This document shows positions 24,181 to 36,302 of a stretch of DNA of 46,675 bases, piece by piece; the first letter of the stretch is position 1; each line of letters starts with the position of its first letter. Both the position numbers and the translations under genes were made by a program. A model generated the notes under the pieces. That model was not told where the DNA came from. It worked only from the letters and a program-made list of their open reading frames with translations, and made no database searches. Source of the DNA: Chloroflexota bacterium (GTDB taxonomy: Bacteria > Chloroflexota > Anaerolineae > DTLA01); NCBI GenBank assembly GCA_014874485.1, contig JADBJK010000001.1, forward strand, positions 1 to 46,675, written 5' to 3'.

Positions 24181-24232
24181 GTTGAGTGAGTCGTGCAGAG
24201 CAGAGTTTTGCCAAAGGAGAGGAGTGAGCAAT

Positions 24233-26608
24233 ATGACCGACCTGAGAATGACCCGACGCACGTTCTTGAAGGCCACGGGCGCGCTGGGCACAGTGGCAGC
24301 CGTGGGCGTTGGTGGGCGCAGGCTGCTCCAGAGCCAGCCGCTGGCCAAGGCCCTGGCGGCACAGGCGGAAGAAGTTAAGATCATCCCAACCTATTGCCAT
24401 GGCTGTGCAGCCACGGCTGTAAACTGTGCGGTCCTTGTCCATGTCAAAGACGGGAAGATGGTGCGCATTGAGGGCAATCCAGACGCTGGCAACAACTGGG
24501 GCGTTGGATCCACTTCACTGTGCGCCAAAGCCCATACGGCTGTGCAGTATGAGTACTCTCCGAACCGCATTCTCTATCCTATGAAGAGGACGGGAGCAAA
24601 GGGAGAGGGCAAATTCGTGCGCATCACCTGGGAAGAGGCGATGAGCACGATCGTGAGCAAGTTGAAGGAGGCCAAGGAGAAATACGGACCTGAGTCGTAC
24701 TGCCATCTAGTCTCCGAGTTCTACCCTCCCCGTGACCAGGTAGCCCGCCGATTCCTGAACCTGTATGGTACGCCAAACTACTGCGAGTGCTGCCTGTGCC
24801 ATGGGCCTAGGTACCTTGCCGCTACGGTGACCATCGGTTTCTGCAGCGAGTCGACAGATGACTGGAACAATTCAAAACTGATCGTGAACTGGGGCTCCAA
24901 TTGCGAGAACTCAGCTGTGAACCAAGGGCAGCCCCATGCTCTACTGAACGCGATTGCGAACGGGGTGAAGTATGTGGACATTCGCCCCATGATGGATCCC
25001 CTAGCATCCAAGGCAGATCAGTGGATTCCGATCAGACCTGGCACAGACTGTGCTCTTGCCCTGGCAATCCTGAACGTGATCATTGGCGAGGGTTTGTACG
25101 ATGCGGATTTCGTCCGAGATTGGTGCTACGGTTTTGACAGACTCGCCGAGCATGTGAAACAGTATACGCCTGAATGGGCAGCGCCCATTACAGGCATACC
25201 GGCGGATGTCATTGCCAATCTAGCCCGCGAGATGGCCACCACGAAACCTATGGTGATCAAGACTGGCAACGGTGTGGGTGACCAGCAGCGCGACGGGACT
25301 TCCGCGATGGCAGCTATCTGCTTGATTGAGGCAATCACGGGGAACCTCGATGTGCCTGGCGGCAACTATGCCGGCGACAACATGCCGAGCATGATACCGC
25401 TCAGGAATTTCATGGTTGAGACGCTCTTGGACAGGCTTCCAAGCGACGCGTATGACAAACTGCTGGCGCCGTCGTACCCGAGGTTTTTGCAGAAGATGCC
25501 GCAGGTCATCTCCCCAGTGGGCTTTCATACCCCGCAGTCGGCGAGCTACAAAGTACTGGAAGCGGTGCTGACGGGCAAACCATATACCCCCAGGGTGATC
25601 AGTGCGCAGCAGACGAGCGTGCTCTCACAATTGCGGAATCCGAAGATGGTGAGCGAGGCGCTGAAGAAGGTAGATTTCTTCTTCGTGATGGATCAATACT
25701 GGTCGCCCGCTGTGGATTATGCTGACATTGTGCTCCCGGCTTGCAGTCTTTACGAGCACGGCCACAACTCGTTCTTCCTAGGTGTCAAGAACCGTCCCGA
25801 TGGCACCTGGATCGGGATGCGGAACAAGGTTGTGGAACCAATGGGTGAGTCGCGGTCAGACTGGGAATTCTGGCTGGACTTGGGCGCCAGGATGGGCTTC
25901 GCAGCGGATATGTGGGGTGGTGACATAGAGAGGTTCATGCAGGAGCAGCTGGAGCCTGCGGGGATCAAGCTAGAAGATCTGCGGAATAGCCCGAGGGGCA
26001 TCTTCGTCAAGAGGACCGAACCGTTGCCGCCTCGCGAGTACCGGAGATACGCACAGCTGTTCAAGAATCTCCCCCATGGTAAGGTGCAGTGCTATAATGA
26101 ACTGATAGGAGGCAAGCCCGACGCTGACGAAACGGGCACCCTCCCGTACATGCCGGAATACAAGGGCCCTCCTGAAGGTATTGCCCAGACTCCGGACCTT
26201 GCCAAGGAGTACCCGCTCATTTTCAGCGATGTGCATGCGTACCGTCTGGACCAGCACAGCAGTTACACCGGTCTCCCCTACCTGCGCGAGTTGCAACCGT
26301 ACCCGTGGGTCAAGATCAATCCCGAGACCGCGAAGAAGTATGGCATCGGTAACGGCGAGTGGATGAAGGTTGAATCGCCGCACGGGTGGGTGAAGATGGT
26401 TGCGGAGTACTTTGAAGGGATACCGCCGGATGTGTTGATGTCAAAACGCGGTTGGTGGCAGAAGTGTGACGAGCTTGGCCTGCCTGGGTATTCGTGCCTA
26501 GACGGTGGTAGCGAGGTCAACGTCCTGTACAACGGCGACCGAGAGAAGTTTGATAAGTGCAGTTGCCAGATGGCCAAGCAAACCCTTGTCAGGATCAGCA
26601 AGTTGTAG
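24233..26608 (+). CDS. Tat-exported molybdopterin oxidoreductase, catalytic subunit 2
   Basis: 791 residues, homologous to the product of 21264 along its length. Tat signal TRRTFLKATGALG is at 7-19. The cluster site is C55-x2-C58-x6-C65-x31-C97, again with unusual spacing. The Mo-ligand position falls in NYCECCLCHGPRYLA, where C189 aligns with C188 of the first enzyme; three extra Cys (184, 186, 187) sit beside it. The C-terminal pterin-binding domain is present (MKVESPHGWVKM). ATG at 24233 follows GGAGAGGAGTG. The base composition is slightly less GC-rich than in the first copy, so the pair may not come from a simple recent tandem duplication. Confidence 0.88.
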   Translation: MTDLRMTRRTFLKATGALGTVAAVGVGGRRLLQSQPLAKALAAQAEEVKIIPTYCHGCAATAVNCAVLVHVKDGKMVRIEGNPDAGNNWGVGSTSLCAKAHTAVQYEYSPNRILYPMKRTGAKGEGKFVRITWEEAMSTIVSKLKEAKEKYGPESYCHLVSEFYPPRDQVARRFLNLYGTPNYCECCLCHGPRYLAATVTIGFCSESTDDWNNSKLIVNWGSNCENSAVNQGQPHALLNAIANGVKYVDIRPMMDPLASKADQWIPIRPGTDCALALAILNVIIGEGLYDADFVRDWCYGFDRLAEHVKQYTPEWAAPITGIPADVIANLAREMATTKPMVIKTGNGVGDQQRDGTSAMAAICLIEAITGNLDVPGGNYAGDNMPSMIPLRNFMVETLLDRLPSDAYDKLLAPSYPRFLQKMPQVISPVGFHTPQSASYKVLEAVLTGKPYTPRVISAQQTSVLSQLRNPKMVSEALKKVDFFFVMDQYWSPAVDYADIVLPACSLYEHGHNSFFLGVKNRPDGTWIGMRNKVVEPMGESRSDWEFWLDLGARMGFAADMWGGDIERFMQEQLEPAGIKLEDLRNSPRGIFVKRTEPLPPREYRRYAQLFKNLPHGKVQCYNELIGGKPDADETGTLPYMPEYKGPPEGIAQTPDLAKEYPLIFSDVHAYRLDQHSSYTGLPYLRELQPYPWVKINPETAKKYGIGNGEWMKVESPHGWVKMVAEYFEGIPPDVLMSKRGWWQKCDELGLPGYSCLDGGSEVNVLYNGDREKFDKCSCQMAKQTLVRISKL

Positions 26609-26618
26609 GAGGGGACCG

Positions 26619-27140
26619 ATGAAACGACAGTACGGATTCTACGTTGAGCTAGAGCGGTGCATCAAGTGCTGGTCTTGTGAAGTGGCCTGCAAGGCTTGGA
26701 AAGGAATAGACGCTGGCACCGTATCCCTGCGTCGCGTGATTGAGATTACAAGCGGCGAGTTCCCTGCGGTGAAACGCACATTCCTATCTATGTCCTGTAT
26801 GCATTGCGAAAAGCCGGCCTGCGAAGCCGTGTGTCCCACCGGTGCGATCTCCAAGCGGCCAGAGGACGGCGTTGTGGTTGTGGACCAGACGAAGTGCATT
26901 GGCTGCCGCTACTGCTTCTTCGCATGCCCGTTCGGCGTGCCGCAGTACGATAAGACCATGCAGAAGTGCGACATGTGCTTGGACCGGCTCGCCGAAGGAA
27001 AAGAACCCGCCTGCGTGGCTACGTGCCCAACGCGCGCTTTGCACTTTGGCACAATGGAGGAACTCTCCAAGATTGCACAGGAGAAAGTAGCCAAGAGACT
27101 GGCTGGGTCCACGCAGCCGTCGGTGCTGGTGTCCAAGTAG
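26619..27140 (+). CDS. DmsB-like 4Fe-4S electron transfer subunit 2
   Basis: 173 residues, a close paralogue of the product of 23599. Cluster motifs are CIKCWSCEVAC, CMHCEKPACEAVCP, CIGCRYCFFACP and CDMCLDR with CVATCPTRAL. It presumably pairs with the second catalytic subunit. ATG at 26619 follows AGGAGGGG, only 10 bp after the previous stop. No second NrfD gene follows the first A-B pair, so both pairs may use the one anchor at 27223. Confidence 0.92.
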   Translation: MKRQYGFYVELERCIKCWSCEVACKAWKGIDAGTVSLRRVIEITSGEFPAVKRTFLSMSCMHCEKPACEAVCPTGAISKRPEDGVVVVDQTKCIGCRYCFFACPFGVPQYDKTMQKCDMCLDRLAEGKEPACVATCPTRALHFGTMEELSKIAQEKVAKRLAGSTQPSVLVSK

Positions 27141-27156
27141 GCGCAGTATGACACTC

Positions 27157-27216
27157 GGGGCCGTGCGCCGGAGCGCTTCGCTCCATCCGGGTCTCCGGCG
27201 CGGCCCCCTTCGGGGG
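27157..27216 (+). promoter_or_regulatory. Two mutually exclusive hairpins before nrfD-like gene
   Basis: A long stem pairs GGGGCCGTGCGCCGGAG (27157-27173) with 27193-27207, with a 2-nt bulge. A second hairpin CCCCC-TTC-GGGGG (27204-27216) uses the same CCCC and lies on the GGGGGTGA that would serve as the ribosome binding site of the next gene. The two cannot form together. Confidence 0.5.
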
Positions 27217-27222
27217 TGAAAT

Positions 27223-28191
27223 ATGACGATACAGAACACATGGGGCTGGCTGGTGGCCGTTTACCTGTTCCTGGGCGGACTGGGCGCAGGGGCGTTTGTC
27301 GCGGTGGCGGTGATCTCGCTGGCCACGGGCGAGCGGTTCAAGTCCACAGTGCGCTTCGGGGCCTGGGCCAGCGCCATCGCCATCGGCGTGGGGACGCTGT
27401 GCCTCCTGATTGACGTGGGGAAGCCGCTCCGAGCGCTGGTGCTGTTCCGCAGTTTCGTGCACTTTGGTTCGTGGATGACCATCGGCGCGTGGCTGCTGTT
27501 CGGCGCGATTCTCTTTGACGGGCTATTCGCGTTGTTCTGGACGGAGCCCGTGCTGCAGTGGGTGGGAGCGCGGTGGAAGTTCCCGGTGGAGCAGCGCAAA
27601 GCGTTCCGCGTCATCCTGGCCGTGCTGGGCATCTTCATCAACCTGGGAGTGGCGGTGTACACCGGCGTGCTCCTGGGCGCGCCGCAGTTTCGGCCCTTCT
27701 GGCACACGTGGTGGCTGCCCGCGCTGTTCACGGCGTCGGCGCTGGATACGGGCGTGGGGCTGGTAACCGGGTATGCCACGCTGGGCGAGCGCTCTGAGAA
27801 GGCCTATGCTCTGAGGAACGTGCTGGAAGGCTGCATCATCGTGCTGATCCTAATTGAGGCCAGCGTGCTCTACCTGTACCTGAGCCATATGCTGAAGGCC
27901 TCGCCAGACGCGGTTCGCTCGGCTGAACTCCTGACGAGCGGTGCGCTTAGGGTACCGTTCTGGCTCGTGGTGGTGGGGCTGGGACTGGCAGTGCCGCTGA
28001 TCGTGTGCGTGACGCAACTGGGTGGCCTGCTGAGGAAGCGCGCGGCGGTCGTGGTCCCGCTCATCGGGCTGGTGTCCTGCCTCATCGGCGGCTGGACGCT
28101 GCGCTACCTCGTGCTTTCTGCGGGACTGCCACAGATGCTGGCCAGCCCGGCCCTGGAGCAGATTCTACAAGGCGTGAAATTCATACCCTAA
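27223..28191 (+). CDS. NrfD/PsrC-type membrane anchor subunit
   Basis: 322 residues with about eight to nine membrane helices. The N-terminus WGWLVAVYLFLGGLGAGAF matches the start of NrfD/PsrC proteins, with LLIDVGKPLRALVLF in the second helix region and VAVYTGVLLGA further on. These subunits exchange electrons with the quinone pool and hold the iron-sulfur and Mo subunits at the membrane. It is the only anchor for two A-B pairs. Translation may be limited by the hairpin over its ribosome binding site. Confidence 0.88.
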   Translation: MTIQNTWGWLVAVYLFLGGLGAGAFVAVAVISLATGERFKSTVRFGAWASAIAIGVGTLCLLIDVGKPLRALVLFRSFVHFGSWMTIGAWLLFGAILFDGLFALFWTEPVLQWVGARWKFPVEQRKAFRVILAVLGIFINLGVAVYTGVLLGAPQFRPFWHTWWLPALFTASALDTGVGLVTGYATLGERSEKAYALRNVLEGCIIVLILIEASVLYLYLSHMLKASPDAVRSAELLTSGALRVPFWLVVVGLGLAVPLIVCVTQLGGLLRKRAAVVVPLIGLVSCLIGGWTLRYLVLSAGLPQMLASPALEQILQGVKFIP

Positions 28192-28206
28192 GGATGTGAA
28201 AACCTA

Positions 28207-28884
28207 ATGACGGAACCGTTGAGCAAGTCGCAGGTGTTGGAGATTCTACAGAGCCGTGCTTCCACGTACAGTTTCCTGTCGCGGGTGTACCGTGAGGAAC
28301 TGACCCCCGCCCTGCTGGCCGAACTGGTGCAGCAAATGGCGGGCGAGGCCACAGACGAAGCCGAAAGCGAGGGCTATCGGACGCTCCGCGAGTACGCTGC
28401 TAAATTCAACCTACAGGACTTGGAGAGCGAAGCCACGGACCTTGCGGCGGAGTACGCGGCGCTGTTTCTGAACATGAGCGAGCATCCGGTCTTCCCGTTT
28501 GAGTCCGTGTACACAAGCCCCGAGCGATTGCTCATGCAGGAAGCGCGGGACCAGGTCGTGGCCGAATACCGCGAGGAGGGCCTGGACCGAACTGCGGAGT
28601 TTCGCGAGCCGGAGGACCACCTTGCCATTGAGTTGGAGTTCATGGCGTACCTGTGTGAGCGGGCCGCAGAGGCGGTGGAGGCGGGCGACCGAGTTGCTGC
28701 CGCAAAGTATCTGGAGAAACAGAGGAACTTCTTGCAGAAGCACCTGCTGGTCTGGTTGCCTGAGTTCTGCCAGGATTTGCAGCGAGCAGCCGGAAAAGGC
28801 TTCTACAAGGGCGTGGCGCATATCACCGAGGAGTATCTGGCCACCGAGGATGAGACGATAGCCGAACTGCTGGGTGCACTGTAG
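28207..28884 (+). CDS. TorD/DmsD-family molybdoenzyme chaperone
   Basis: 225 residues, all helical, with the family pattern FPFESVYTSPERLLMQEARD and EPEDHLAIELEFMAYLCE. TorD-type chaperones bind the Tat signal of a molybdoenzyme and hold it until cofactor is inserted. One chaperone is encoded for two catalytic subunits whose Tat signals are almost the same (RRTFLKATGALG), so it may serve both. The ATG lies 15 bp after the anchor gene with AAGGATGTG upstream. Confidence 0.88.
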   Translation: MTEPLSKSQVLEILQSRASTYSFLSRVYREELTPALLAELVQQMAGEATDEAESEGYRTLREYAAKFNLQDLESEATDLAAEYAALFLNMSEHPVFPFESVYTSPERLLMQEARDQVVAEYREEGLDRTAEFREPEDHLAIELEFMAYLCERAAEAVEAGDRVAAAKYLEKQRNFLQKHLLVWLPEFCQDLQRAAGKGFYKGVAHITEEYLATEDETIAELLGAL

Positions 28885-28981
28885 GTGCAGGGTTTTCAGG
28901 TGGGGCAGGTGGGGCTGCGCCGGGATACGTATGGAGCAGGCGCGGCCCCACAAGCCCGAATCTTGCGAGGAGGAAACCGAA

Positions 28982-29173
28982 GTGCCACACTTGGGGCCAT
29001 TGGAACTGGCGATTATTCTGGTCATTGTGATCATGATTTTCGGGGTTGGAAAGTTGCCGGAGGTGGGTTCGGCAATGGGGAAAGCCATTCGCGGCTTCCG
29101 TCAGGCTTCTGCCGGTGTTGAGGAAGAGATCAAGCGAGAGGCAAAAGAAGAACTCCCGAAAGGTTCGGCATAA
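28982..29173 (+). CDS. tatA: Twin-arginine translocase subunit TatA
   Basis: 63 residues: a single N-terminal membrane helix (LELAIILVIVIMIFG), the FGVGKLPEVG motif at the hinge, an amphipathic helix (AMGKAIRGFRQ) and a charged tail. This is the TatA/E pattern. TatA forms the Tat pore in the cytoplasmic membrane. The GTG at 28982 follows GAGGAGG; an upstream in-frame ATG would overlap the chaperone gene and lacks a site. A dedicated TatA in the operon fits the two Tat-tagged subunits. No tatC is in the window. Confidence 0.9.
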   Translation: MPHLGPLELAIILVIVIMIFGVGKLPEVGSAMGKAIRGFRQASAGVEEEIKREAKEELPKGSA

Positions 29174-29182
29174 GGAGCAGGC

Positions 29183-30328
29183 ATGGCACTGGTGGGACTT
29201 CCCGAACTGATGGAGATTCTGAGCCGCCTGGGAGGGCAGGCGGTGCAAGTACACACAGAACGGTGCGCGCGGGGCCGCCATCGGAAGTCCACGTGCACGC
29301 GCTGTGCGGATGTCTGTCCGACAGGGGCCATCTCGTGGGCCGAGGGTCTGGCCGTGGATCCCGACAAGTGCACGGGGTGCGGGGCATGTGCGGCAATCTG
29401 CCCTACCGGGGCGCTGGAGGCTTCCTCGCCCGCAGACGGCGAGCTGCTGGCGCGGGCCCGTCAGGTGGCGCAAACGAGGAAGACGGTGGCGTTCGCCTGC
29501 CCGCGCTACGTAGAAGCGGGGCCTGGTGCCAGGGCTGCGTGCGTAGAAGTATCTTGCATTGGACGGCTGCATGAGGCGGTGCTGGTGGGCGCAGTGGCGA
29601 CAGGGGCGCAGTGGGTGCTGCTGCTGGACGGTGCCTGCGAGGGCTGTCCCTCGGCGAAGGCTCACGAGGTTGCCGAGCGGATGGTGGCTCGTGCGAATGG
29701 GCTGCTCCAGGCTTTCGGCGTGTCGTCCCGCGTTTCCCTGGGCCCGCAGCTCCCTGCAAGCCTATTGGCGGGCGGTGGGGATTCGGCCGAGGGGCTGTCG
29801 CGCCGGGGGTTCTTCACCTTGCTGGCGCGGGAGACCGTGCGTCTGGGCGCGGTAACCGTGGACACGGTGCTGTCTGGCCGCGAGCGTGTGGAGAAGGCTG
29901 AGCCCACGCGGGGGGAACTGCCCGCGGACGTGCCGGCGAAGCGTGCGTTGTTGTTGGCGTCGCTCAAGCGGTTGGGCGAGCCTGCTGTCGCCCGGCTTGA
30001 AACGGAGGGCTGGGCCACATTCGGACATACCGAGTCGTGCACGGGGTGCCAGATGTGCGCCTTCTTCTGCCTGACCGGGGCGCTCACGAAAGTAGAAGGC
30101 GAGGGCAAGGTCGGTGTTGCATTTCGGGCATCGGCGTGCACGGCCTGCGGGTTGTGCGTGGATATCTGCTATCAGGACGCGGTAACGCTGGCCGCGGGAG
30201 CCGACGTCCGCAAGGTGCTGAGCGACGAGGCCGAGGCGCACTGGATGCGTGGCTCGGATGAGGCACCGTGGCAGCAGCCCGCGACCGACAGGATTGCCAA
30301 GAGCATTTGGGAGACGTTGGAACTCTGA
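29183..30328 (+). CDS. Multi-cluster ferredoxin-like protein
   Basis: 381 residues. Two 4Fe-4S motifs near the N-terminus (CTRCADVCPTGA, CTGCGACAAICPTGA) and two near the C-terminus (CTGCQMCAFFCLTGA, CTACGLCVDICYQDA) flank a middle domain. The middle part has a Cys-bearing stretch (FACPRYV, CVEVSCIGRL, GACEGCPSA) recalling MvhD-type hydrogenase iron-sulfur subunits, then LSRRGFFTLLARE. No signal peptide or membrane segment, so it probably acts in the cytoplasm, as a maturation factor or an electron carrier like NapF. The exact role is not known. SD AAGGAG lies just before the ATG, 9 bp after tatA. Confidence 0.75.
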   Translation: MALVGLPELMEILSRLGGQAVQVHTERCARGRHRKSTCTRCADVCPTGAISWAEGLAVDPDKCTGCGACAAICPTGALEASSPADGELLARARQVAQTRKTVAFACPRYVEAGPGARAACVEVSCIGRLHEAVLVGAVATGAQWVLLLDGACEGCPSAKAHEVAERMVARANGLLQAFGVSSRVSLGPQLPASLLAGGGDSAEGLSRRGFFTLLARETVRLGAVTVDTVLSGRERVEKAEPTRGELPADVPAKRALLLASLKRLGEPAVARLETEGWATFGHTESCTGCQMCAFFCLTGALTKVEGEGKVGVAFRASACTACGLCVDICYQDAVTLAAGADVRKVLSDEAEAHWMRGSDEAPWQQPATDRIAKSIWETLEL

Positions 30329-30349
30329 CGGGGACTCTGACAAGTGCAT

Positions 30350-30505
30350 ACGTAGGTTCTCCGAGCCGCCGAGCCTAAAGCCTGCGCCATGGCTCAGGTG
30401 GCCGTACTCCGGGGCCGTCCCTGGGGGACACCGGCAGTTGCGGTGTCGTGGGTGGGCGCGGAAACGCGATCGCCTCCTCGTGTTTGGAAAGGAGAACGGG
30501 ACAAC
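30350..30505 (+). promoter_or_regulatory. Structured leader, candidate Moco riboswitch
   Basis: Between the ferredoxin gene and moeA lies an RNA with several helices. GTTCTCC (30355-30361) pairs with GGAGAAC further down, closing the whole. Inside are GAGCC/GGCTC, a GTCCC/GGGAC hairpin, GACACCG/CGGTGTC and CGCG-GAAA-CGCG with a GNRA loop, then GATCGCCTCC. Motifs CTCCGAGCCGCC and ATGGCTCAGGTGGCC recall the Moco RNA family as I remember it. The position before moeA-mobB-mobA fits control by molybdenum cofactor. I could not score it against the family model. Confidence 0.6.
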
Positions 30506-30533
30506 AGACGCCAGGGTATGGGCCTGTATGCTG

Positions 30534-30587: not shown

Positions 30588-31814
30588 ATGCGCGAGGAAT
30601 CCAGCAAGATGATCGGGTACAAGGAAGCCTTGGAGCAGACATTGCAGGCCGTTCGGCCTCTGGATGCGGAAGTTGTGCCGCTGATGCAGTTGGTGGGGCG
30701 CGTGGCAGCCGAGGGCATCTATGCTACGGTGGACTCGCCCTCGGTGGATGCGTCGTTCAAGGATGGGTACGCAGTGCGGTCAGCAGATGTGGCGGGAGCG
30801 AGGCCTGAGTCTCCGGTGCGGCTGCGGCTCATCGGCACGGTGCCGGCCGGGGGCACGTTTGACGGGGTGGTTACTCCTGGGACGGCGGTGCGTATCCTGA
30901 GCGGCGCGCGCATTCCGGAGGGGGCAGAGGCCGTGCTGGCCGACGAGTTTGCGTCGGACGACGGTCAGTTCGTGGTGGCCGTGAACGACGCGGAGCCCGG
31001 CCGAAATATCCTACGCAGGGGCTGTGATGTGCGCAATGGCGACCTGCTGGTTGCCGCCGGCACGGTGCTGAGGCCAGCGCAGGTAGGGCTTCTGGCTGCG
31101 GCAGGGCTACGCGAGGCGCGTGTGGTGCGGAGGCCGCGCGTTGCGATCATCGCGACGGGCGACGAGGTGGTAGCGCCCGGCGGCAGCCTGCGCGAGGGCC
31201 AACTGTTTGCCAGCAACTTGGTTACGCTGGCGAGTTGGTGCGCATACTTCGGCATGGCGACGACGCTGGACGTGGTCAGCGATGACCCGGACGCGATCCG
31301 GGCGCGGGTACTGGAGGCGATTCGGGCAGGCGATGCCGTGCTAACGAGCGGCGGTGCCTGGAACGGCGAGCGGGACTTCGTCGTGGCCTTGCTTCACCAG
31401 TTGGGCTGGCGGGAGATCTATCACCGGGTGAGGATGGGGCCTGGGAAGGCCGTGGGCTTCGGGCTGTTGGAAGGGAAACCGGTCTTCTGCCTTCCCGGCG
31501 GGCCGCCGTCCAACCAGATGGCGTTTGTGCAACTGGCACTGCCAGGGCTGCTGAGGCTAGGCGGCCGGTGGGATACCGGACTCCCGCAGATGAGCGTTAC
31601 GCTGGCCGAAAGCGTGGCGGGTCAAGAGGACTGGACACAGTTCATTGAGGGACGGCTGGAGTACGCCGATGGAGAGGCCTTGTTTCACCCGTTCCGCATG
31701 GGAAGCCGGCTCCGCCCGATGGCGCGATCCGACGGTATCCTGCAGGTTCCCGAGGGCGTGAGTGCCATTCCGGCAGGCAGCCGCGTGCGAATCCAGGTGT
31801 TGCCCTGCGCATAG
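30588..31814 (+). CDS. moeA: Molybdopterin molybdenumtransferase MoeA
   Basis: 408 residues, the usual MoeA length. Hallmarks: SPSVDASFKDGYAVRSAD, GGTFDGVVTPGTAVRILSGARIPEGAEAVL (seen as AVRILSGARIPEGA), VAIIATGDEVV, then a MoaB-like domain with VLTSGGA and KPVFCLPGGPPSN. MoeA inserts molybdate into adenylylated molybdopterin. ATG 30588 has GAAGG just upstream; ATG 30609 is an alternative. The frame is open far upstream but that part overlaps the structured leader. It heads a cofactor unit with mobB and mobA, matching the demand of the two molybdoenzymes. Confidence 0.92.
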   Translation: MREESSKMIGYKEALEQTLQAVRPLDAEVVPLMQLVGRVAAEGIYATVDSPSVDASFKDGYAVRSADVAGARPESPVRLRLIGTVPAGGTFDGVVTPGTAVRILSGARIPEGAEAVLADEFASDDGQFVVAVNDAEPGRNILRRGCDVRNGDLLVAAGTVLRPAQVGLLAAAGLREARVVRRPRVAIIATGDEVVAPGGSLREGQLFASNLVTLASWCAYFGMATTLDVVSDDPDAIRARVLEAIRAGDAVLTSGGAWNGERDFVVALLHQLGWREIYHRVRMGPGKAVGFGLLEGKPVFCLPGGPPSNQMAFVQLALPGLLRLGGRWDTGLPQMSVTLAESVAGQEDWTQFIEGRLEYADGEALFHPFRMGSRLRPMARSDGILQVPEGVSAIPAGSRVRIQVLPCA

Positions 31815-31838: not shown

Positions 31839-32330
31839 ATGGTTCCGATCATTTCCGTAGTGGGTAAGTCTGGGGCAGGCAAGACGACGTTTCTGGAGAA
31901 ACTGGTTCGGGAACTGAAGCGGCGAGGGATACGGGTGGCCGTGATCAAGCACGACACCCATGGGTTTGACATTGACAAGCCGGGGAAAGACACCTGGCGC
32001 ATGGCGCAGGCCGGGAGCGACGCGGTGGTCATCTCCTCGCCCTTCAAGATGGCGCTCATCAAGACCGTGGATCACGACATGACGCCGGACGAGATCGCGG
32101 TGTACCTGGACGGCGACGTGGACATCATCCTCACGGAAGGGTACAAACGCGGCGACAAGCCGAAGATAGAGGTTTCGCGGTCGGAGGTCAGCCACGAACT
32201 GCTCTGTTCAGAGGAGGAACTGGTGGCGTTGGTTACCGATCAGCAGTTCAACATGGCCGTGCCGCAGTTCGGACTGGACGATGTAGCGGGTGTGGCAAGC
32301 CTGCTGGAGCGGCACATCTTGCATCGGTAG
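31839..32330 (+). CDS. mobB: Molybdopterin-guanine dinucleotide adaptor MobB
   Basis: 163 residues. Walker A GKSGAGKTT is at 9-17, then VAVIKHDTHGFDIDKPGKDT and DIILTEGYKR, both characteristic of MobB. It binds GTP and assists MobA in attaching GMP to the pterin. AGGAG precedes the ATG, 24 bp after moeA. The adjacent mobA begins 10 bp after its stop. Confidence 0.92.
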   Translation: MVPIISVVGKSGAGKTTFLEKLVRELKRRGIRVAVIKHDTHGFDIDKPGKDTWRMAQAGSDAVVISSPFKMALIKTVDHDMTPDEIAVYLDGDVDIILTEGYKRGDKPKIEVSRSEVSHELLCSEEELVALVTDQQFNMAVPQFGLDDVAGVASLLERHILHR

Positions 32331-32340
32331 GAGGTTGGCT

Positions 32341-32976
32341 GTGCGAGAGCCGATCAGTGGGATTGTGCTGGCGGGGGGCAAGAGCAGACGAATGGGGCAG
32401 GACAAGACCCAAATACGGCTGGATTCGGGTCTCAGCCTGCTGGAACATGCCGTAGCACGGGTGGCCGAGGTGGCCGATGAGGTCGTTGTTGTTACGGCGG
32501 GCTCGCGCGGGAATCTGCCGAACGTCCGCTGGGCGAACGACGTGTACCCGGGGGCCGGCCCGCTCGGCGGCATCTACGCAGGGCTTCTCGCGTGCGCCTG
32601 GGACCACGCGCTGGTCGTCGCCTGCGATATGCCGTTTCTGAGCGTGGATTTGCTGCGGTACATGGTGGAATTGCCGCGAGACTACGATGTACTGCTGCCA
32701 AGCCTTCCGCGGGGCGTTGAGCCGTTGCACGCCGTGTACGGCAGAAGGTGCCTGGAACCCGCGCGGGAACTGCTTGAGGCGGGCGAGTACTGCATCCTGG
32801 ACCTCTACGAAAGGGTCAGGGTGCGGTACGTGGGTCCTGAGGAGATCGCCATATATGATCCGGACGGCCGCTCGTTCTTCAACATCAACACGCCGGACCA
32901 GTTGCGGCAGGCGCGGAATATGAGCCGCCGAATCCTGGAACGCCGGGGTGCCACGATCAGCGGCAGGGAGGGCTAG
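32341..32976 (+). CDS. mobA: Molybdenum cofactor guanylyltransferase MobA
   Basis: 211 residues. The nucleotide-binding signature LAGGKSRRMGQDK is at the N-terminus, then GPLGGIYAGL and VVACDMPFL with the metal-binding Asp, and FFNINTPDQL at the end. MobA makes the bis-MGD form of Moco used by DMSO-reductase-type enzymes, so it directly serves the two catalytic subunits upstream. Start GTG 32341 follows TAGGAGGTT. It ends 3 bp before the ECF ATPase gene, suggesting one transcript. Confidence 0.93.
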   Translation: MREPISGIVLAGGKSRRMGQDKTQIRLDSGLSLLEHAVARVAEVADEVVVVTAGSRGNLPNVRWANDVYPGAGPLGGIYAGLLACAWDHALVVACDMPFLSVDLLRYMVELPRDYDVLLPSLPRGVEPLHAVYGRRCLEPARELLEAGEYCILDLYERVRVRYVGPEEIAIYDPDGRSFFNINTPDQLRQARNMSRRILERRGATISGREG

Positions 32977-32979
32977 AGC

Positions 32980-34464
32980 GTGCAACAGGGTGTGGCTGTC
33001 GCAGCAGGTTTGCATCGTTTACCGGCCGTTGAGCCGCAGGCCGTGGTACGGGTTGAGGACCTGACGGTAGCGTATGGGGGCGAAGCGGCGCTACGCAACG
33101 TTACCCTTACTGTGCGTGAGGGGGAGTTCGTGCTGGTAACCGGCGCGTCGGGGTGTGGCAAGACGACCCTGGCCCGGTGCCTGAACGGGCTGATCCCTCA
33201 CCTCATTCCCGCGCGTGTCGCCGGGAGGATAGAGGTCGCGGGCCTGAACCCGCTGGAGTGCGAGGTGCGAGACATGGCGTCGCGCGTGGGCATGGTGTTC
33301 CAGGTGCCCGAGACGCAGTTGTTCAACCTCACGGTGGAGGAGGAGGTGGCCTTTGGCTGTCGCAATCTTGGGTTGCCGCACGAAGAGGTGGCGCGGCGTA
33401 CCGATTTCGCCCTTGCTGGGGTGGGGCTGGAAGCGCTGCGCAGGCGCGCGCTGCACCAGTTGTCGGGCGGAGAGAAGCAGTTGACCGCCATCGCCTCGGT
33501 GCTGGCGATGCAGCCGCGGGTCATGGTCTTGGACGAACCGCTGTCCAGTGTGGACATGCACGGCGTGCGGCGTGTCATGAATGTGCTGGCCCACCTGAAC
33601 AGGGCTATGGGTATGACGGTGATCCTGATTGAGCACCGGACGCATCAGGCGGCGGAGTTCGCGAGCCGCGTTTTGGTGCTGGACAAGGGGGAAGTTGTTC
33701 TGGATGGCGGGCCGGAGGTGCTGTGGGAACAGGGGGCCTTTCTGGCAAGCCTGGGCGTTCGCGTACCCGGGGAGACTGCTAGACCCGCCGTGCCGTTTGG
33801 CCACGCGGCTGCCAAGAGCGGCGAGGTCGTCGTCTCGGTGCGCGACGTGCAGTTCGCGTACCGAGACCGGCCTGTGCTTCAGGGAGTTTCCCTGGACGTG
33901 CGGCGCGGCGAGTTCCTGGCGCTGGTGGGCGACAGCGGGGCCGGGAAGACCACGCTCGCGCACGTGATCGCCGGGGTACTGAAACCGGCTGGCGGGACCG
34001 TTCGCGTCAACGGCCACAACGGCGGCGGGCACAACGGGAACAAGGTGGGACTCCTCCTCCAGAACCCCATTGAGCATCTGTTCTGCGACAGGGTTGAAGA
34101 AGAAATCCGTTTCGGCCCCGAGAACTTCGGCTGGCGGGCAGAGGACCTGGTAGAGGAAACCCTTGAGCGCACCAACCTTCGGGATGTGAGGGACAGGGAG
34201 GTGCACCGTCTGAGCCGAGGACAGCAGCAACGGTTGTCGCTTGCCACGGTGTTGGTGCTGAGGCCGGAGGTGCTGATTCTGGACGAGCCGACCCTCGGGC
34301 AGGATTGGGGGAACCTCACGCGCTTCATGGGTTTCGTCAAGGAATTGCAGGCCGGAGGCTGCACGGTGATCCTCATCACGCACGACTACGACATCGCCGC
34401 GAGATATGCAGATCGCACGGTGCGCCTTTGCGATGGTCGCATCGTAACACAAACAGGAGGATGA
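32980..34464 (+). CDS. ECF transporter, fused double ATPase
   Basis: 494 residues with two complete ABC ATPase domains. The first has Walker A GASGCGKT, signature LSGGEKQ and Walker B VMVLDEP; the second has GDSGAGKT, LSRGQQQR and VLILDEP. The Q-loop stretches FQVPETQLFNLTVEEEV and LLQNPIEHLFCDRVEEEI are typical of energy-coupling factor (EcfA/CbiO) ATPases. The fusion resembles YkoD of YkoEDC-type transporters. It powers the S and T components encoded next. GTG start with GGGAGGG upstream. Confidence 0.88.
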   Translation: MQQGVAVAAGLHRLPAVEPQAVVRVEDLTVAYGGEAALRNVTLTVREGEFVLVTGASGCGKTTLARCLNGLIPHLIPARVAGRIEVAGLNPLECEVRDMASRVGMVFQVPETQLFNLTVEEEVAFGCRNLGLPHEEVARRTDFALAGVGLEALRRRALHQLSGGEKQLTAIASVLAMQPRVMVLDEPLSSVDMHGVRRVMNVLAHLNRAMGMTVILIEHRTHQAAEFASRVLVLDKGEVVLDGGPEVLWEQGAFLASLGVRVPGETARPAVPFGHAAAKSGEVVVSVRDVQFAYRDRPVLQGVSLDVRRGEFLALVGDSGAGKTTLAHVIAGVLKPAGGTVRVNGHNGGGHNGNKVGLLLQNPIEHLFCDRVEEEIRFGPENFGWRAEDLVEETLERTNLRDVRDREVHRLSRGQQQRLSLATVLVLRPEVLILDEPTLGQDWGNLTRFMGFVKELQAGGCTVILITHDYDIAARYADRTVRLCDGRIVTQTGG

Positions 34465-34465
34465 G

Positions 34466-35095
34466 ATGAAATATCGCACGCAGGAATTGGTGTATATCGC
34501 CGTCTTCGGGACGATCTGGGGTGTGGTGGAGATGACCCTGGGATCGTACCTGCACGTGCTGAACGTGCCGCAGTCTGGGACGTTGCTCGCGGGCATGGGG
34601 ATGGCGGTACTGGTGGTGGGGCGGACGTTCGTGCCCAAGCGGGGCGCCACGCTTCTGATGGGAGTGGTGGCGATGTTCATCAAGATGTTCTCGCTGGGCG
34701 GGATCGTCATTAACCCGATGTTGGGCATCTTCATGGAGGCACTGCTCGCAGAAGTGGGGTTTGGATGGGGGATGCCGACGCGGTGGCGGGCCATGCTGGG
34801 TGGCGCGCTAGGTGTGTCGTGGATCATCGTACATCCGTTCATCACCCAGGGTATCGCTGCAGGATGGGGCATCGTGCGGGTGTACACCTGGCTGGTGGAG
34901 ACGGGTGCGCGGCTGTTTGGGATTTCCACGCGGGCGGCTTTGCTGATCTTTGTCTTGTTGTGCCTCACCAAGCCGGTTACGGGAGCGGTTGGCGGGTGGC
35001 TTGGATGGGAGATGACCGCAGCGGTGCGCAGGCGGCTGGGACGAGGCCCGCTCGCTGCGGAAGCGAAAACTATTCTACCGGAGGGGAAGCAATGA
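34466..35095 (+). CDS. ECF transporter S component (substrate-binding membrane subunit)
   Basis: 209 residues, about six hydrophobic helices, with the N-terminal pattern ELVYIAVFGTIWGVVEMTLG, GMAVLVVGRTFVPKRGATLLMG and PMLGIFMEALLAEVGFG. The size and pattern fit ECF S components, which bind vitamins or metals. The substrate is not evident: it is not clearly a known vitamin S component. Location behind mobA and under the candidate Moco leader suggests a link to molybdate, tungstate or a pterin, but this is inference. ATG follows AGGAGG, 1 bp after the ATPase gene. Confidence 0.75.
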   Translation: MKYRTQELVYIAVFGTIWGVVEMTLGSYLHVLNVPQSGTLLAGMGMAVLVVGRTFVPKRGATLLMGVVAMFIKMFSLGGIVINPMLGIFMEALLAEVGFGWGMPTRWRAMLGGALGVSWIIVHPFITQGIAAGWGIVRVYTWLVETGARLFGISTRAALLIFVLLCLTKPVTGAVGGWLGWEMTAAVRRRLGRGPLAAEAKTILPEGKQ

Positions 35096-35553
35096 GGAAG
35101 GCGTTCGTAGTCGGATTGGTTCTGGCAGTTTTGCTTGCCGGATGCGAGGCCGGCTCTGGAACGAGCGGCACTTCGGATTGGAGCGTTACGGTTACCTCGG
35201 CTGCCGGGACGAAAGCGCTGACGCTGGCGCACCTGAAGGCGTTGCCGCAGACGGAGGTGGAGTTCTTGTCCAAGGAGACCGGGACGACCAACAAGTACAA
35301 AGGCCCTGCGTTGAAGGAGGTCCTCGAGGCAGCGGGTGTGGACCTGTCGTCGGTGCAGGCGGTGGACGTGGAGGCTGAGGACGGGTTCTTCGCCACGTTC
35401 AGCCGGGACCTGGCGCTGAGGGATAACGTAATCCTGGCCGTGCAGATGGACGGCGGCGCATTGCCTGCCGAGATGGGCACGGCTCGCACGATTGCTCCGG
35501 GCGAAGGTACCAAGTTCCAGGTCAAGTATGTCAAGCGCATCACCGTGAAGTGA
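35092..35553 (+). CDS. Sulfite-oxidase-fold lipoprotein within the ECF operon
   Basis: 153 residues. A signal peptide ends in a lipobox LLAGC18, so the mature protein is lipid-anchored outside the cell membrane. The rest matches the molybdopterin-binding oxidoreductase fold in short form: LTLAHLKALPQTEVEF, KYKGPALKEVLEAAGVDL, VEAEDGFFATFSRDLAL, NVILAVQMDGG. There is no Cys after the lipobox, so the catalytic Mo-ligand Cys of sulfite oxidases is missing and enzyme activity is unlikely; a binding role is more plausible. ATG overlaps the previous stop (ATGA) and its stop overlaps the next start (GTGA). Confidence 0.75.
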   Translation: MRKAFVVGLVLAVLLAGCEAGSGTSGTSDWSVTVTSAAGTKALTLAHLKALPQTEVEFLSKETGTTNKYKGPALKEVLEAAGVDLSSVQAVDVEAEDGFFATFSRDLALRDNVILAVQMDGGALPAEMGTARTIAPGEGTKFQVKYVKRITVK

Positions 35554-36302
35554 AAGGCAGGTTGCGGATGGAGAACGCAGAGGCGCGTCCTCGGGTGGGG
35601 CTCGGCGACTGGAGCATCTGGGGGTCGGTGTTCTTCCTGGTGTCCTCTCTTGCGGCAACCATGGCTCTGCGGGGAGGCTGGGCATTGCTGGGGCTGGCGT
35701 ACGTGGCGGCGTGGGCAAGCCTGATGTCGCCGACGGCCGTGCACAGCCTGAAGAGGCGGCGCTTCTGGTTCTTTCTGGTGTCCGTAACGGTGATTAGCGT
35801 GTTGGCGATGGGAGGAGAGGAGACCGTCGCAATTGCGGGGCTGAACCTATCCAAGGTGGGGTTGTCCGCAGGGTTCGGTATGGCGGTGCGGGCGACGACG
35901 ATCATCTTGGCGACGACGGCGTTCGCCCGCACGGCCTCCATCGGGGGACTCTCCGCGTTGTTCGCTCGGCTCGGCGTAACCGAGATTGGGTTCCTCCTCG
36001 GGATTGCCGTGAACCTGGTTCCGCTGATTCAGCGTACCGCGTCTAGCGCATTGGTGGCGATGCAACTGCGGGGTGGGTTCAGGCGCAAGCGGCTGGAGGC
36101 CGTGAAGCGGCTGGTGGTAACGATTCTCGTCAACACGCTGCGCCACAGCGAGGATATTGTGTGCGCGGCCGAGGCGCGGGCCTTTGGCGGTGCTCCGCCT
36201 TCCGTGGAGCCGGTAGCCCTGACCCGCGCAGACCGTGTGCTCATGATCGCTTCCGTTGTTTTCTACGGAGTGGTGGTGTTGTTGCAGGTGGCAACAGCGT
36301 AA
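35550..36302 (+). CDS. ecfT: ECF transporter T component (EcfT/CbiQ family)
   Basis: 250 residues from the GTG at 35550 or 244 from ATG 35568. Five or so membrane helices, and cytoplasmic coupling motifs typical of EcfT: ALVAMQLRGGFRRKR and ICAAEARAFG-like (CAAEARAFGG). It links the ATPase dimer to the S component. It completes the A-S-lipoprotein-T set and ends the plus-strand run that began at 21 kb. Confidence 0.85.
   Translation: MKGRLRMENAEARPRVGLGDWSIWGSVFFLVSSLAATMALRGGWALLGLAYVAAWASLMSPTAVHSLKRRRFWFFLVSVTVISVLAMGGEETVAIAGLNLSKVGLSAGFGMAVRATTIILATTAFARTASIGGLSALFARLGVTEIGFLLGIAVNLVPLIQRTASSALVAMQLRGGFRRKRLEAVKRLVVTILVNTLRHSEDIVCAAEARAFGGAPPSVEPVALTRADRVLMIASVVFYGVVVLLQVATA

Follow-up and report, generated by a model that had tools for sequence, protein, structure and literature searches.

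A Moco riboswitch-headed ECF importer cassette with an embedded sulfite-oxidase-fold lipoprotein in Chloroflexota: a candidate for molybdenum or tungsten cofactor supply

The window analysed here is the whole of contig C112 (JADBJK010000001.1, 46,675 nucleotides) of the 3.74-Mb draft genome of a Chloroflexota bacterium (GCA_014874485.1). It carries a tight plus-strand run of genes in the order moeA-mobB-mobA-ecfA-S-lipoprotein-T, in which genes of molybdenum cofactor (Moco) metabolism are followed by an energy-coupling factor (ECF) importer with a lipoprotein of the sulfite oxidase (SUOX) fold encoded between its S and T components. Dedicated A, S and T components are encoded together, as is characteristic of group-I ECF importers. 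A preliminary description, made from the sequence alone, had placed the ECF genes and the embedded lipoprotein at 32980-36302 with overlaps on both sides; these coordinates proved exact, and the lipoprotein gene overlaps both the S and the T gene by 4 bp. To this we add a Moco riboswitch, which that description had overlooked. It belongs to the sole Rfam family matched in the window, lies directly 5' of moeA and heads the operon. The features are as follows, the molybdoenzyme operon upstream being given last.

30347..30510, plus strand: Moco riboswitch aptamer (RF01055; 60.3 bits, gathering score 36; hairpins at P3 by folding)
30600..31814, plus strand: moeA, molybdopterin molybdotransferase, metal insertion (PF03453, PF00994, PF03454)
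31839..32330, plus strand: mobB (PF03205, 154 bits; TIGR00176 above cut-off)
32356..32976, plus strand: mobA, Moco guanylyltransferase, exact start unsure (PF12804)
32980..34464, plus strand: ecfA-A', fused tandem ABC ATPase of the ECF importer (TIGR04520)
34466..35095, plus strand: ecfS, substrate-binding S component with a YkoE-like fold (AlphaFold model; PDB fold match)
35092..35553, plus strand: SUOX-fold lipoprotein without the molybdenum-ligand Cys; lipobox LAGC, Cys18 (PF00174; AlphaFold model)
35550..36302, plus strand: ecfT, transmembrane coupling component (CbiQ/EcfT, PF02361, 47.8 bits)
24182..30328, plus strand: upstream molybdoenzyme operon (Pfam)

EcfA matches PF00005 twice and TIGR04520 with 373.8 bits (cut-off 315), and contains two Walker A and two signature motifs. 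When the sequence of the S component was compared with the PDB by phmmer and profile searches, nothing meaningful was obtained, and fold comparison alone succeeded: the AlphaFold model (predicted local distance difference test, pLDDT, 89.6) has YkoE as its top match (5edl, Z 16.1), followed by RibU, ThiT and FolT. On this model the protein is a true ECF S component. It matched no NCBIfam family, its score against the YkoE family PF09819 is borderline (23.3 bits, cut-off 25.2; 25.1 in the genome search, or 25.4 with in-frame neighbours), and its closest named relatives are from Chloroflexota. In a profile alignment (91 % probability) the conserved Lys73 and Glu91 (95 % each) occupy the positions of YkoE Glu77 and Gln95. 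These two residues, which hold thiamine by its pyrimidine, are the only ones of the pocket that could be placed. The replacement of these residues argues against thiamine and, with the results of the family searches, leaves the S component apparently outside the known vitamin families, as the preliminary description had required of it. The top structural match to YkoE, and a fused EcfA accompanied by S and T in the arrangement of ykoEDC (PMC5037267), would be accounted for by a thiamine or hydroxymethylpyrimidine importer of the YkoEDC kind that merely adjoins Moco genes. That explanation is nevertheless very improbable, considering the two replaced pocket residues and the presence, in many genomes, of a Moco riboswitch and no thiamine pyrophosphate (TPP) riboswitch.

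Only the Moco riboswitch was matched in the window, with no TPP riboswitch, and across the scanned loci no riboswitch of any other class was reported, TPP, flavin mononucleotide and cobalamin included. According to the rule of Regulski et al. (2008), RNAs of this family that bear a P3 stem go with Moco and those without it go with the tungsten cofactor (Tuco) (PMC2408646). The P3 region of the window riboswitch folds into hairpins, and if the rule is taken as given, the RNA would be of the Moco rather than the Tuco type. Elsewhere in the same genome (contig C58; L128, 158-2112) an aldehyde ferredoxin oxidoreductase gene lies behind a riboswitch of this family for which folding gave no P3 stem, as would be expected of the tungsten-cofactor type. 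Two Moco-type RNAs precede genes for a 'putative sulphite oxidase' in Syntrophomonas wolfei (PMC2408646), and these genes may be of the same kind as that of the window lipoprotein.

The lipoprotein matches Oxidored_molyb (PF00174) with 53.6 bits (cut-off 24), and its model (pLDDT 88.4) has the SUOX fold, with Z 18.1 to chicken sulfite oxidase (3hbg). The absence of the molybdenum-ligand Cys, already noticed in the preliminary description, was borne out: the lipobox Cys18 is the only Cys of the protein, and the cassette lipoproteins have none beyond the lipobox. Six residues that the window protein has near the expected site of the molybdenum loop (59-64) are absent in 23 of the 24 aligned sequences. 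The lipoprotein resembles the sulfite oxidase and YedY enzymes (PF00174) in its fold (Z 13-18) and in some of its sequence profile, but it lacks both their molybdenum-ligand Cys and their second domain. The model also superposes end to end on PruR (7kom; Z 17.4, TM score by target 0.79). Like PruR (7kom, 7kos, 7kp2), it is an exported protein of about 130 residues that consists of a SUOX fold alone and lacks the ligand Cys; unlike PruR, it is lipid-anchored and encoded with an ECF importer, its neighbours being ecfS and ecfT and not dcpA (diguanylate cyclase-phosphodiesterase), and the two share 17-21 % identity. The Cys-less PruR binds reduced pterins and works by altering the activity of a membrane partner (PMC13259868).

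The operon upstream encodes, by Pfam, a molybdenum-bis(pyranopterin guanine dinucleotide) oxidoreductase (24182-26608), an Fe-S subunit, NrfD, a TorD-like chaperone, TatA and a polyferredoxin, and is likely a user of the cofactor. Given this operon and the SUOX fold, the lipoprotein could be regarded as the degenerate subunit of a molybdoenzyme, uninvolved in transport. This is hardly credible, however, as the position between S and T is kept in 22 loci, the Cys is missing and such domains are fused directly to transport proteins, as described below.

The pairing of lipoprotein and importer, on whose recurrence the preliminary description depended, is not unique to the window. The S family was present in 11 of 400 genomes of the phylum, and scanning the species genomes of GTDB yielded 64 loci, mainly in Chloroflexota, with others in metagenome-assembled genomes (MAGs) labelled Actinomycetota, Myxococcota, Armatimonadota, Acidobacteriota, Gemmatimonadota and others. 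With the window and a second copy in the same genome this makes 66 loci, where EcfA was found in 54, T in 55, an NTPase_1 match in up to 45 and FmdE in 13 (some fused to MobB), the counts being approximate since some hidden Markov model matches fall on long merged open reading frames. A SUOX lipoprotein occupies the same slot, directly after S, in 22 of the 66. This is above chance, as the whole 3.74-Mb genome of the window has only four PF00174 matches. FmdE-MobB, MoeA, MOT1 and NTPase_1 genes recur beside the cassette. Among the 44 loci with enough upstream sequence, 24 have a Moco riboswitch directly before the first cassette gene; there are about one to two such riboswitches per genome in the class, a frequency at which placement by chance can be neglected. 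A riboswitch precedes the cassette more often where the lipoprotein is present (16 of 19 loci) than where it is absent (8 of 25; Fisher p 0.0008, relatedness ignored). The link to molybdenum and Moco, for which the preliminary description had pointed to the proximity of mobA, is thus far stronger than first thought.

In a tree of the S component, 21 of the lipoprotein loci fall in one clade and the window falls outside it, which first suggested that the window lipoprotein had been recruited independently. The tree of the lipoproteins does not support this, as all 22 cassette lipoproteins, that of the window included, form one group (support 93/89). Taken together, the two trees indicate one or two gains of the lipoprotein and some later losses.

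Several variants of the S family were also seen. The second cassette of the same genome (contig C91; L025, 6604-11565) has an S component of the same family and neither lipoprotein nor Moco riboswitch; a gene for a MOT1-type molybdate permease separates its ecfA from its ecfS. Distant S-family genes with no EcfA or EcfT nearby occur at L031 (6435-8261) and L095 (3851-9131); one of them adjoins an NTPase_1-MobA fusion and a molybdoenzyme gene cluster, and the other lies within an apparent xanthine dehydrogenase operon with MobA-like and NTPase_1 genes. S-family proteins of 420-550 residues (L078, L080, L083, L084 and L091) appear to be S-T fusions with ecfA not nearby, mostly in MAGs labelled Myxococcales or Proteobacteria.

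Genes behind Moco riboswitches in the same class were examined and gave four informative fusion proteins, each type of fusion being found in one or two draft genomes only. In G513 and G464 a YkoE-like S component (PF09819, 70.4 and 61.5 bits, respectively) carries two extracytoplasmic SUOX-like domains in the same polypeptide, and the next genes are ecfA and ecfT; the SUOX match is above the Pfam cut-off in G513 only, and the SUOX part of the S fusion gave no match in a phmmer search of the PDB. In G439 the product of the gene behind tupB and tupC combines the tungstate-binding protein TupA (PF12849, 166.6 bits) with a SUOX domain (27.5 bits, cut-off 24). In G505 a SUOX-like domain (21.1 bits, slightly under the cut-off) is joined to two Peripla_BP_2 domains and encoded with FecCD and an ATPase. 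Stand-alone SUOX lipoproteins of one to three domains also occur behind Moco riboswitches (G490, G513, G464 and G473). Together, these proteins indicate that a Cys-less SUOX domain is repeatedly used as the external module of importers linked to Moco riboswitches, in three unrelated transporter classes. A subset of the riboswitch-linked SUOX domains (L099, 864-1328; G464:C12; G439:C565) has a CxxC pair at a distance from the lipobox, which may be connected with metal binding or redox chemistry. When the survey for riboswitch-linked SUOX proteins was carried to the phylum reached via L095, the riboswitch was found in just 2 of 195 genomes.

The lipoprotein might alternatively be a sensor rather than a delivery subunit, detecting an extracellular pterin or the molybdenum or tungsten state in the manner of PruR and modulating the importer. 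In favour of this are its fold, shared with PruR, which modulates a membrane partner (PMC13259868), and its absence from many cassettes. The fusions to the S component, to TupA and to the binding protein of the FecCD type suggest work on the substrate path, and we therefore consider a sensor improbable.

The riboswitch, the neighbouring genes (moeA, mobA, mobB, FmdE-MobB, MOT1 and molybdoenzymes) and the TupA fusion all point to molybdenum or tungsten supply. The link to the metabolism of these cofactors is strong, and a role of the cassette in their supply is very probable. The cassette is best read as a Moco-responsive group-I ECF importer for molybdenum/tungsten cofactor supply with a SUOX-fold extracytoplasmic accessory. 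From the parts, fold, riboswitch, recurrence and fusions, all obtained by computation, we infer import of a substrate, ligand binding by the lipoprotein and hand-over. As judged from the riboswitch class, a shortage of Moco would lead to expression of the whole operon from moeA to ecfT. The membrane-anchored lipoprotein would capture the ligand outside the cell and pass it on to S, import would be powered by EcfT together with the fused EcfA, and MoeA, MobB and MobA would use the imported product in the cytoplasm. For this explanation as a whole, i.e. a riboswitch-controlled group-I ECF importer with capture and hand-over by the lipoprotein and a molybdenum or tungsten source as the likeliest substrate, we estimate a probability of about 0.5. 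As to the substrate by itself, a source of molybdenum or tungsten, either an oxyanion or a small complex, has about an even chance, and a pterin-type Moco precursor is ranked second.

Some observations weigh against this explanation. We are not aware of any oxyanion that is imported by an ECF transporter. Among stand-alone SUOX proteins without the Cys, a known ligand was found for PruR only, and it binds pterins. Where a T gene is clear, the majority of cassettes lack the lipoprotein, which thus is neither obligatory nor essential to transport; the proposal of the preliminary description that it is an ECF accessory subunit gains from the S-SUOX fusion in two other genomes. Furthermore, TupA was found in 25 of 39 cassette genomes and a strong ModA/WtpA-type match in most of the others, and the cassette accordingly adds to the known molybdenum and tungsten importers rather than replacing them; the idea that it is a substitute for them was rejected. 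The genome of the window itself has a tungstate importer, tupBCA, immediately preceded by a separate Moco riboswitch (contig C98; L127, 9958-12538), as well as the MOT1 gene beside the second ECF copy.

The PruR-like fold of the lipoprotein and the vitamin-type fold of the S component point instead to a pterin, which is a possible substrate, although a less likely one. The importer could take up molybdopterin, Moco or a precursor, the lipoprotein binding the pterin outside and the end-product Moco controlling expression much as TPP controls YkoEDC; we regard this alternative as tentative. It would agree with the superposition of the lipoprotein model on full-length PruR, with the binding of reduced pterins by this Cys-less relative (PMC13259868) and with an S fold nearest to vitamin S components, and the co-occurrence with other molybdenum and tungsten importers would fit a different substrate. 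The large subunit of molybdopterin synthase, MoaE, was not found in the genome of the window or in two genus mates (G000, G434 and G462), despite the presence of moaA and moaC in the former, which could be taken as a sign of salvage. However, MoaE was not found in 33 of the 64 Moco-riboswitch-positive genomes of the class, the three of this genus included. Its loss is thus widespread in the class and unlinked to the cassette, and its absence alone is no sign of salvage; it implies an undescribed molybdopterin synthase or another source of molybdopterin. Most of the lipoprotein-bearing genomes have both MoaC and MoaE and would not need salvage, and compensation for an absent cyclic pyranopterin monophosphate pathway was rejected as a general rule, since MoaC was found in 31 of 40 cassette genomes. 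A pterin is also opposed by the SUOX domain fused to the tungstate-binding TupA. In addition, free Moco is very unstable in air, which is unfavourable for this alternative.

Of the known systems, the group-I ECF thiamine importer YkoEDC of Bacillus subtilis resembles the cassette in its fused tandem EcfA, its single S and T components per operon, the fold of S and riboswitch control by the end-product cofactor. The window differs in having a Moco and not a TPP riboswitch, Lys and Glu at two thiamine-contact positions and a lipoprotein between S and T. TupABC, ModABC, WtpABC and MolBCA share the role in molybdenum or tungsten supply, and TupBC occurs under the same riboswitch in the class, once with the TupA-SUOX fusion; in the ECF architecture of the window, however, a membrane S component replaces the classical binding protein. 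CbiMNQO and NikMN(L)QO are group-I ECF metal importers which likewise have a small extracytoplasmic or membrane accessory, but their substrates are cations and their accessories are of a fold unrelated to that of the window lipoprotein. The group-I architecture is thus already known, whereas the regulatory link and the accessory fold are new. In the open-licence PubMed Central literature we found no description of an ECF importer tied to Moco riboswitches or molybdate, of a Moco importer or of a SUOX-fold transport accessory.

Comparative genomics has revealed molybdenum users for which no molybdenum or tungsten importer is known, as well as organisms that have molybdoproteins although their Moco pathway is incomplete (PMC6147048). 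The riboswitch-controlled ECF importer with its SUOX-fold accessory is a candidate for an undescribed uptake route of molybdenum, tungsten or Moco and, if this is true, ECF importers extend into molybdenum/tungsten cofactor supply. Should the importer and its lipoprotein instead bring molybdopterin, Moco or another pterin precursor into the cell, to which we give a little over one chance in four, it would be the first bacterial Moco-salvage system within the literature searched, with a cofactor-binding enzyme fold recycled as an external receptor. Through its recurrent fusion to three unrelated types of transporter, the Cys-less SUOX fold acquires a role that can be tested, and similar proteins now annotated as 'oxidoreductase' may be transport accessories.

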